This document shows positions 11,625 through 14,637 of a stretch of 34,125 bases of DNA, in pieces. Every line of letters begins with the position of its first letter. Position 1 is the stretch's first letter. The translations under genes were made by a program, and so were the position numbers. This stretch comes from a virus. The notes beneath the pieces were generated by a model. The model saw only the letters and a program-made list of their open reading frames with translations. It was not told the DNA's origin and did no database searches. The stretch spans positions 1 through 34,125 of IMG/VR virus record IMGVR_UViG_3300049825_000295. One strand, written 5' to 3'.

Positions 11625-11713
11625 CACAAATCACTCCAAAATAAAATGGCAGACGTTCTCGCACCCGGCCTGCCAGCGGGCTACCACGGGGCGTTATCCC
11701 CGCGAGCTTAACA

Positions 11714-12151
11714 TCATTGTTTTGACTTTCTACTTTTTGTGGTTGGACTGTTTTCCCCAGTCCTTCCTTTACAATATTCAATAAAGCCAGGAGCGTTTAG
11801 ATTTTCCTTTTGTGTCCCCCACTTTAGATTTTCCGGCCTATTGTTCAGCGCGTTTTCGTCCAAATGCAAAACCACACCTTTACCATCCGGGGCCGCTCCA
11901 TGAAATGCCTCGCAGACAAGCCGATGAATCTTCATATTTCCAAAATTCCGAGTAAACATGCTATAATATGCGTGCCTTGCAGACTTTGACGCCCTCGTAA
12001 CAACACCAAAAACCGGTCTTGTTTTATATTCTCTCCAACCGCCATGCGGCATTTGTGCCATGCGATTAGGTAGCTGCACGCGCCCGAGGCTGCTGGCCAT
12101 TATCCCTTCCTTTGATGGGACAGGCATCCAAATCTCTTCTCCCATATTCAT
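11714..12151 (-). CDS. HNH homing endonuclease (NUMOD4-HNH type), 145 aa
   Basis: A free-standing mobile endonuclease. The N-terminus (EEIWMPVPSKEG, then SSLGRVQL) is a NUMOD4-like DNA-recognition segment. The C-terminal half has the HNH_3 signature: MKIHRLVCEAFHG, then VVLHLDENALNNRPENLKW. The local sequence is more AT-rich than its neighbours, suggesting lateral arrival. It sits between the recombination gene 11442-11624 and the SSB-like gene, splitting an otherwise tight operon. ATG 12151 lies six bases after a GGAG that is part of a 13-bp inverted repeat, so its translation may be controlled (see the hairpin and promoter entries). Confidence 0.88.
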   Translation of the reverse strand: MNMGEEIWMPVPSKEGIMASSLGRVQLPNRMAQMPHGGWREYKTRPVFGVVTRASKSARHAYYSMFTRNFGNMKIHRLVCEAFHGAAPDGKGVVLHLDENALNNRPENLKWGTQKENLNAPGFIEYCKGRTGENSPTTKSRKSKQ

Positions 12152-12154
12152 ATC

Positions 12155-12197
12155 ATACTCCGTTAGAAACGATATAGTATCAAATCTAACGGAGTAT
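12155..12197 (-). promoter_or_regulatory. 13-bp hairpin sequestering the HNH ribosome site
   Basis: Perfect 13-base inverted arms (12155-12167 and 12185-12197, ATACTCCGTTAGA and its complement) flank a 17-base loop. In the leftward mRNA the 3' arm contains the GGAG (12161-12158) that serves ATG 12151, so the folded stem would hide the ribosome site. A candidate promoter lies across the 5' arm, so transcripts from it would lack that arm. Confidence 0.8.
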
Positions 12198-12210
12198 TAT
12201 CCGGTGTCAA
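12183..12210 (-). promoter_or_regulatory. Candidate promoter inside the hairpin, TTGACA-16-TAGATT
   Basis: On the minus strand TTGACA (12210-12205) is followed after 16 bases by TAGATT (12188-12183, four of six matches). Transcription would start near 12176, within the hairpin loop, giving an mRNA with a free GGAG for the HNH gene. The 5' hairpin arm lies between and overlaps the -35/-10 elements. Confidence 0.5.
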
Positions 12211-12239
12211 GCAGCTTTCGCCGTTCTTGGCCTGACACC
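12203..12239 (-). other. 7-bp inverted repeat after the SSB-like gene
   Basis: GGTGTCA (12203-12209) pairs with TGACACC (12233-12239) around a 23-base loop, starting two bases past the SSB-like stop. There is no T-tract, so it is a weak terminator at best. It may instead be a boundary mark of the HNH insertion. Its left arm includes the -35 of the HNH promoter. Confidence 0.35.
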
Positions 12240-12240
12240 C

Positions 12241-12825
12241 TTAATCAAAAGGGACATCATCCCCCAAATCATCCGCAACCGCAGTTTTGGTGGCGGGCTT
12301 TTTCGCGGGGGCCGCGCCTTCAGGGATCGATACGCCCTTTGACTTCGGGAACACCGCCGCAATCCAGTTGCCGCTATTCATCTGGCCATTGGTTTCCATT
12401 TCCCAGACCATGCATTTGATTACCATGGGCTTGTCTTGCAGGGCCAAAGCCAGATCATCATTGCTTGGCTGGCGCGCGTTGCGAGCGAGCTTGCCGCCGC
12501 AGTTTGCGTCAATCGCAGCCAGCATCCGCTTGGCCTTGTCGCGTTTCTTCGCGGCTTTGTCGGCATCTTTGGCGTTCGGATCATCATCCGTTACCCAAAG
12601 CTTGTGGAATACCTTGCGGTTGCGATATTGATCGGGATCGTCGATTGACCACTTGAGCGAGATAAATTCCGCGCCGCCTTCGCGCGCAGTATCCCACTTC
12701 GCTTCCTCAATAAATGCCAGCACGTTCGATCCATCGGGGATCGGATCAAAATTGCCGGTTTCCTGCTCGTATTCTTTTTCATTAGTGACGGCGGTTTCGC
12801 CATCGGTCAAATTCCAGAATGACAT
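12241..12825 (-). CDS. SSB-like single-stranded DNA-binding protein (DUF669-like)
   Basis: A 194-residue protein with a beta-rich core (DGSNVLAFIEEAKW, EFISLKWSIDDP) and a long charged middle. The C-terminal tip is very acidic and ends in DDLGDDVPFD. Bacterial SSB ends in a D-D-D-I-P-F tail that recruits partner proteins, so this tail strongly suggests an SSB role. Core and size fit the DUF669 family often found in place of SSB in phages. ATG 12825 has AGGAG seven bases upstream, overlapping the end of the ATPase gene. It is encoded with the Sak4-like ATPase and the YqaJ exonuclease. Confidence 0.75.
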   Translation of the reverse strand: MSFWNLTDGETAVTNEKEYEQETGNFDPIPDGSNVLAFIEEAKWDTAREGGAEFISLKWSIDDPDQYRNRKVFHKLWVTDDDPNAKDADKAAKKRDKAKRMLAAIDANCGGKLARNARQPSNDDLALALQDKPMVIKCMVWEMETNGQMNSGNWIAAVFPKSKGVSIPEGAAPAKKPATKTAVADDLGDDVPFD

Positions 12826-13869: not shown

Positions 13870-14637
13870 TCAAGCCCCCTTCCCAGAGGGCGGCACATGC
13901 TCGCCAAACGCAATCACGCCCTCGCGCAGTTCGGCCCGGATTTGCATTTCTTCGGGAGTGGGGATGCGCCAAGAACATAGCCCGGCGAAAATGCGAAATT
14001 TGGCTGCAATCCATTTTGCGGAAATTACTAAGCCAGCTTCGATGGACCATCCAACTTCGATGGACCCGCCAGCTTCGATGGACGCGCCAGCTTCGATGGA
14101 CCCGCCAGCTTCGATGGACCATCCAGCTTCGATGGACCCGCCAGCTTCGATGGACGTGCCAGCTTCGATGGACCCGCCAGCTTCGATGGACGTGCCAGCT
14201 TTGATGAACTCGCCAGCTTCGATGGACGTGCCAACTTTGATGGACGTGCCAGCTTCGATGGACCCGCCAACTTCGATGGACGTGCCAGCTTCGATGGACC
14301 ATCCAGCTTCGATGGACGTGCCAGCTTCGATGGACGTGCCAGCTTCGATGGACGTGCCAGCTTCGATGGACCATCCAGCTTCGATGGACCATTCAGCTTC
14401 GATGGACCATCCAGCTTTGATGGACCCGCCAGCTTCGATGGACGTGCCAGCTTCGATGGACGTGCCGTTTAGCGATACAATTGATTGCGACGCACAAAGC
14501 CCTGCCGAGAATTTTACGCATCCGAGATCGGCGGCAATTTCGATATCACCCTGCCACTCGGTTACATCGGCGGTCCCTATATAGAGGCCGGTATCGTCCA
14601 AATCCGCGCGGGTGATTATCAGTTTGGTATTGGTCAT
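13870..14637 (-). CDS. Hexapeptide-repeat beta-solenoid protein, 255 aa
   Basis: A 50-residue head (MTNTKLIITRADLDDTG, then DVTEWQGDIEIAADLGCV) leads into 24 tandem copies of [TGWAE]-S-I-[EK]-[AV]-G. A 53-residue tail (KFRIFAGLCSW, then PEEMQIRAELREGV) closes the protein. Isoleucine every six residues is the pattern of a beta-solenoid, related to left-handed hexapeptide or bactofilin-like polymer-forming folds, with 24 hexads giving about eight turns. ATG 14637 has AAGGA eight bases upstream; 14658 is an alternative. It heads the leftward recombination operon, opposite the Cro-like gene. Function unknown; a scaffold, adhesive or DNA-mimic role is conjecture. Confidence 0.8.
   Translation of the reverse strand: MTNTKLIITRADLDDTGLYIGTADVTEWQGDIEIAADLGCVKFSAGLCASQSIVSLNGTSIEAGTSIEAGGSIKAGWSIEAEWSIEAGWSIEAGTSIEAGTSIEAGTSIEAGWSIEAGTSIEVGGSIEAGTSIKVGTSIEAGEFIKAGTSIEAGGSIEAGTSIEAGGSIEAGWSIEAGGSIEAGASIEAGGSIEVGWSIEAGLVISAKWIAAKFRIFAGLCSWRIPTPEEMQIRAELREGVIAFGEHVPPSGKGA
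14032..14463 (-). repeat. 18-bp tandem repeat, 24 units
   Basis: Twenty-four 18-base units run without gaps. On the plus strand each reads GCCAGCTTCGATGGA plus a variable triplet (CCA, CCC, CGT, CGC or CTC). The variation is almost all in one codon of the minus-strand gene, whose codons TGG, GGG, ACG, GCG and GAG all end in G. The Gly codon before Trp is GGA in all but one mutated copy, and GGC before the others. Because of the repeat all frames stay open. Confidence 0.97.

Follow-up and report, generated by a model that had tools for sequence, protein, structure and literature searches.

The Shine-Dalgarno sequence of a putative HNH homing endonuclease gene is held in the stem of a hairpin in the window (the whole stretch of viral DNA analysed, an IMG/VR virus record of 34,125 nucleotides), and masking of the ribosome site by this hairpin is well supported. 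The centre of the hairpin is a dyad that recurs upstream of related HNH genes in many viruses. The explanation that we regard as probable is that a mobile HNH gene carrying its own leader was inserted behind ssb, that a hairpin in this leader masks the Shine-Dalgarno sequence, and that the core of the hairpin has a probable second role. Computation shows the hairpin, its compensatory conservation, and that it occurs where the HNH gene is present and is missing where the site is empty; an effect on translation, a possible promoter, a possible operator role of the core and the endonuclease activity are inferred. The genes concerned are as follows.

12241..12825, - strand: ssb gene (phrog_9002); its 3' end codes for the acidic tip DDLGDDVPFD
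11714..12151, - strand: HNH homing endonuclease gene, 145 aa (Pfam HNH_3, 3e-13; phrog_1492 HNH endonuclease, 5e-28)
11637..11680, - strand: probable terminator of the ssb-HNH transcript, a conserved CCGCTGGCAGRCCGG...GTCTGCC hairpin or pseudoknot with a T run

A Sak4-like gene lies upstream of ssb, and the HNH gene is followed by a small ORF and then by a YqaJ/RecE-like exonuclease gene. I-HmuI (1u3e) is the sole PDB relative of the HNH protein by profile search (7e-5) and the top fold match of its predicted structure (Foldseek 1e-4; mean pLDDT 82). Residues H76, H84, H96, N104 and N108 of the HNH catalytic domain are invariant among 14 relatives. The protein is a putative homing endonuclease of the I-HmuI type and presumably has endonuclease activity. 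The 16 closest HNH relatives from bacterial genomes (L282-L297) are mostly from alphaproteobacteria, a weak indication of the host, and a search of named phages found none with DNA close to the window. An element like that at 11637-11680 directly follows ssb in many relatives with an empty site. Phage contigs very commonly contain the form CCGCTGGCAGRCCGG-N-AGTCTGCC with T's behind it (at least 120 stretches; for example L121-L165 and L392-L471), usually just past a gene end and at times in two copies per contig; it can fold as an intrinsic terminator hairpin or as an H-type pseudoknot. Two tandem repeats were also seen in the window: an 18-bp repeat in 24 copies at 14032-14466, where both strands have long open frames and the leftward ORF encodes the repeat SIEAGx, and a 60-bp repeat in 4.6 copies, 96% alike, at 1898-2170.

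The leader between ssb and the HNH gene contains the following elements.

12202..12240, - strand: hairpin 1, a conserved covarying stem directly after the ssb stop codon, with a 7-nt bulge and the motif GYCNNGANNGG
12155..12197, - strand: ribosome-site hairpin, a 13-bp inverted repeat with arms at 12185-12197 and 12155-12167
12190..12197, - strand: outer-stem 5' arm, variable, ATACTCCG, which pairs with the Shine-Dalgarno sequence and shows compensatory change across 19 sequences
12163..12189, - strand: core dyad of 27 bp, TTAG-N3-TGATA-N3-TATCR-N3-CTAA, found at 64 distinct viral loci and recovered by an IMG/VR scan
12158..12161, - strand: Shine-Dalgarno GGAG in the 3' arm, assigned from sequence and conserved in position at most masked loci

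On the - strand, 5'-ATACTCCGTTAGA (12197-12185) pairs perfectly over 13 bp with TCTAACGGAGTAT (12167-12155) across a 17-nt loop, and the HNH start codon, ATG, follows at 12151-12149. The loop contains a second short stem, TGATA/TATCG, and the full predicted fold consists of the 13-bp stem, a 2x2 internal loop and a 5-bp stem (MFE -21.5 kcal/mol). This repeat, with the GGAG in its stem, was reported in an earlier note on this DNA and is confirmed here at the same positions. It is the sole perfect inverted repeat of at least 10 bp (loops up to 40) in the 34-kb window, and none above 11 bp arose in ten Markov shuffles. The earlier note also held that the GGAG is buried in read-through RNA, and this is borne out both by predicted folding, in which its unpaired probability is 0.000, and by compensatory change in relatives. 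Rfam 15 gave no match at the curated score anywhere in the window, including both leader hairpins and the terminator-like element, and a known RNA family was rejected on this ground.

In the explanation that we favour, a free-standing mobile HNH gene would have entered between ssb and the ssb terminator together with its own 5' leader. On RNA reading through from the ssb operon, the leader would fold into two tandem hairpins, the second of which would hold the HNH Shine-Dalgarno sequence in its stem, and translation of the HNH gene would presumably be low. For the gene to be expressed, the hairpin would have to open, or RNA without the 5' arm would have to arise by processing or from a weak internal promoter. 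The 27-bp core would accompany the HNH gene as it moves, and a further role that depends on its sequence is probable, possibly that of an operator. The first of the two hairpins, which the earlier note lacks, lies between ssb and the masking hairpin. It shows compensatory change at 10 of its 14 pairs, with G-Y-C-N-N-G-A-N-N-G-G invariant, and a covariance-model search located it in HNH-bearing loci only.

The core dyad is a property of the gene family. Among 78 viral loci with HNH relatives, most of the closer ones have the dyad just 5' of the start codon, with the pattern TTAG-N3-TGAYA-N3-TATCA-N3-CTAA and a length fixed at 27. When further loci were added, the count reached 64 distinct dyad elements upstream of HNH relatives, separated from the rest by a clear gap in score. 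When all of IMG/VR was scanned without bias for the exact dyad, 41 stretches matched (L097 being the same contig as L003 on the opposite strand), and 40 of these adjoin an HNH relative; L102 is the sole stretch that has no such neighbour. The dyad is absent from phrog_9002 ssb relatives that lack the HNH gene, where a terminator-like hairpin or other sequence follows the stop codon, and from canonical SSB genes that lack it. Relatives of both kinds have the site in its empty form.

The 64 loci fall into two arrangements. At 37 of them the dyad overlaps the upstream stop, and the upstream gene takes its last codon and its stop from the TTAG of the dyad (CCNTTTTAG). In many of the 37 an ATG directly follows the dyad and no Shine-Dalgarno sequence is present, an order that suggests translation of the HNH gene by translational coupling. 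At the remaining 27 loci the dyad stands apart from the upstream stop, and 21 of these extend it by an outer stem of 4-11 bp, which in most of the 21 holds the Shine-Dalgarno sequence, whereas none of the 37 overlapping loci has an outer stem. The sequence of this stem varies between lineages (ACTCCG/CGGAGT, CCCCG/CGGGG, CACCTCCA/TGGAGGTG). In an unselected test over all 64 loci, with stems counted from four pairs up, 21 real loci had one, against a mean of 3.2 and a maximum of 9 after the right-hand flanks had been shuffled among loci. Double-sided changes numbered 35, where shuffles gave 9.7 and slid controls no more than 10; these were counted on 19 sequences chosen for their pairing, and the flank-shuffle test is the fairer of the two. 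On read-through RNA, the predicted unpaired probability of the Shine-Dalgarno sequence is at most 0.1 in 18 of the 21 masked loci. Loci with and without a masking stem alternate on the HNH tree (12 changes). One gene family appears to hold two answers to read-through from a host operon. At three loci, L275 (to the right of its dyad), L142 and L098, the start codon lies farther from the dyad and a second, different hairpin covers the ribosome site (ATCATAGGCA-ggaggtact-TGCCTATGAT; ATGGCGGGTAT...ATACCCGCCAT), so that the start site seems to be masked in another way.

How masking might be relieved is less clear. The earlier note placed a promoter over the 5' arm, and the sequence TTGACA-16-TAGATT is indeed present (12210-12205 and 12188-12183).

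12205..12210, - strand: candidate -35 TTGACA, which is also the 3' arm of hairpin 1
12183..12188, - strand: candidate -10 TAGATT, within the 5' arm and loop

A switch of the I-TevI type would follow if this promoter worked: RNA started at about 12176, in the loop, would lack the 5' arm and be translated, and read-through RNA would be silent. We consider this possible but do not favour it. The candidate matches the consensus at 10 of 12 positions, with only 4 of 6 in the -10, and promoter-like matches in the 2.5-kb region are in no excess (3, against 2.0 +/- 1.6 in shuffles). Across the masked loci the best -35 match at a spacing of 15-18 averages 3.9 of 6, compared with 2.6 in shuffles, and a match of 5 of 6 is reached in 6 of 21 against an expected 1.7%; TTG stands at a spacing of 16-17 from TAGNNT in 14 of 21 masked loci as opposed to 5 of 43 others. 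Because the loci are not independent of one another and a conserved stem overlaps the -35, the enrichment is no more than suggestive. The TTG lies within a conserved RNA stem and may be kept for pairing, and the TAG of the -10 belongs to the core and forms the stop codon of the upstream gene in 37 loci. Full TTGACA is rare, occurring in four loci. Common descent accounts for CTTGACACC in four loci, and in L257, L262 and L204 a -35 was looked for and none is present. An internal promoter has partial support. An extended -10 inside the dyad (TGNTATCAT) was rejected, as its last position may be A, T or G and is not kept.

The predicted folding of shortened RNA bears on the same question. The earlier note stated that the gene's own transcripts would be open, which is not supported in that form. 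Window RNA starting anywhere from 12176 to 12188 is predicted to refold into a weaker hairpin (-5.9 kcal/mol) with the GGAG about 88% paired; the GGAG is 12% unpaired from a start at 12176 and at least 47% unpaired from 12172, so that opening begins only from about 12172 or downstream. Relief of masking by a start in the loop would therefore be only partial in the window. At other masked loci the accessibility of the Shine-Dalgarno sequence in loop-start RNA rises from about 0 to 0.03-0.9, a rise that speaks for the switch.

The core may instead be a DNA operator to which the HNH protein or another dimer binds and so represses its own transcription, as I-TevI does, the RNA hairpin being a later addition in some lineages. 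This seems rather unlikely as a full account, although several features of the core accord with it. Pairs 3/25, 9/19 and 10/18 are invariant among 42 distinct cores, as if the sequence itself were kept. Within the inner core, A.C mismatches are as common as G.U (15 and 16, respectively), a ratio equally compatible with a DNA dyad and with an RNA stem. The dyad occurs once per locus, neither the window nor any other locus retrieved having a further copy, and it persists with or without a masking stem in classes that alternate on the tree. Since 43 of the 64 loci have the core without a masking stem, it is not kept for masking only. Against an operator, pair 5/23 shows G.U over A.C by 17 to 3, which points to RNA, and to our knowledge no dimer has been described among HNH enzymes of the I-HmuI type. 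In our reading the core would serve for recognition in some form, perhaps as an operator. Two more specific candidates were rejected: an operator of a phage-wide regulator, against which the single copy in the window and in each locus speaks, and an FNR/FixK box, for which the TTGA-N7-TCAA spacing is one base too long.

At all 64 loci the C-terminus of the upstream protein is an SSB-like acidic tip, DDxxPF followed by no more than a short extension, which indicates that the homing target is probably tip-coding DNA. The upstream proteins form 13 groups without detectable mutual similarity, although some small groups may be distant relatives of each other; those assigned include canonical SSB (PF00436), phrog_9002, phrog_7364, Gp2.5-like phrog_112, Erf and Pam3 gp34-like proteins. 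Among HNH relatives that lack the dyad, 30 of 50 are also behind acidic-tip genes, and in Escherichia phage SU10 the HNH gene follows gp37, which ends EDDNDSPF. Tip sites can be seen at L013 4433-4435, L011 4969-4971 and window 12241-12252. Some upstream groups have no assigned function and are candidates for new ssDNA-binding or SSB-tip-using proteins.

This pattern suggests that the HNH gene invades tip-coding DNA. The wider proposal, that the family recognises DNA coding for the SSB tip (DDxxPF-stop) and homes between unrelated genes with a fixed leader of two modes, has in our judgement an even chance of being correct. A direct join would place the stop codon within the dyad, and the HNH gene would likely be translated by coupling; at a separate join the unit would bring its own tip end CCCTTTTGATTGA, a second hairpin and the stem that masks the Shine-Dalgarno sequence. 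The end CCCTTTTGATTGA or -TAA is common to several dissimilar upstream groups at separate-type loci, which suggests that the unit might supply a tip end of its own.

The main alternative to tip homing is that phages swap ssb genes in a fixed genome slot, perhaps with recombination at the tip itself, and that the nuclease does not target tip-coding DNA. Phage ssb slots are known to be swapped, and among the upstream genes with an assignment almost every one codes for an ssDNA-binding or annealing protein. Swapping nevertheless appears unlikely as the sole cause. In the pair L384/L321, with canonical SSB genes, the insert begins directly behind the stop codon, with TTCCTTTTTAGGAT in common and divergence thereafter. 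The HNH tree requires 26 changes of upstream group (minimum 12), some across well-supported forks, and the clade of L215/L243 with L223/L232 (support 96/96) spans unrelated upstream genes. The shared 5' border behind dissimilar genes also argues against swapping. Two further loci deserve mention. In L128 the ssb product ends in PFD, and behind the stop codon come a different hairpin and a gene that is no relative of the present HNH family; a second kind of mobile gene may have used this site. L134 / L002 (contig IMGVR_UViG_3300020045_006948) has two divergent ssb genes in opposite orientation, only one of them with an HNH unit.

Finally, it is extremely improbable that the inverted repeat arose by chance or is a terminator of no regulatory significance: nothing favours this beyond the AT-rich loop, the repeat is the longest in the window and conserved family-wide, and the lack of a T run behind the stem speaks against a terminator.

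The masking logic is already known. In T4, I-TevI, I-TevII, I-TevIII and segB, and in Aeromonas phage Aeh1 the free-standing HNH gene mobE, have hairpins that mask the ribosome-binding site and an internal late promoter, and I-TevI binds an operator over its late promoter (PMC2988022, PMC3014915). The present gene is not the first of this kind. As in the I-TevI leader of the T4 td intron, the ribosome site is masked on RNA initiated upstream, a promoter-like site within the 5' part could give shorter RNA without the arm, and a possible operator coincides with it. Unlike I-TevI, a GIY-YIG enzyme encoded in a group I intron and served by a T4 late promoter, the present gene is a free-standing HNH gene behind ssb with a sigma-70-like candidate known from sequence alone. 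The hairpin of mobE likewise reduces translation of a free-standing HNH homing gene; mobE, however, lies in nrdA of one phage, whereas the leader described here is conserved in dozens of phages, has a second hairpin besides its fixed core, and stands at an insertion site in tip-coding DNA. The lysozyme gene e of T4 is similar in that a long early RNA masks the ribosome site and a short late RNA does not (PMC3014915), but it is not mobile. I-HmuI (PDB 1u3e), the closest solved HNH homing endonuclease to the window protein by profile and fold, is intron-encoded, shares 24% identity and has a different target. T4 segG is also a free-standing homing gene beside a gene for an ssDNA-binding protein, gene 32 (PMC2988022), but it encodes a GIY-YIG enzyme and lies upstream of gene 32, away from the tip-coding end. 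A literature search of partial coverage found no paper on a conserved modular leader or a tip-coding site, and these are what differ here from the known systems. A single hairpin thereby becomes the testable, conserved leader of a widespread mobile gene. If this gene does target tip-coding DNA, it is a selfish element that takes advantage of a protein motif maintained by selection in unrelated ssDNA-binding proteins, which would explain how homing genes reach non-homologous sites without loss of specificity.
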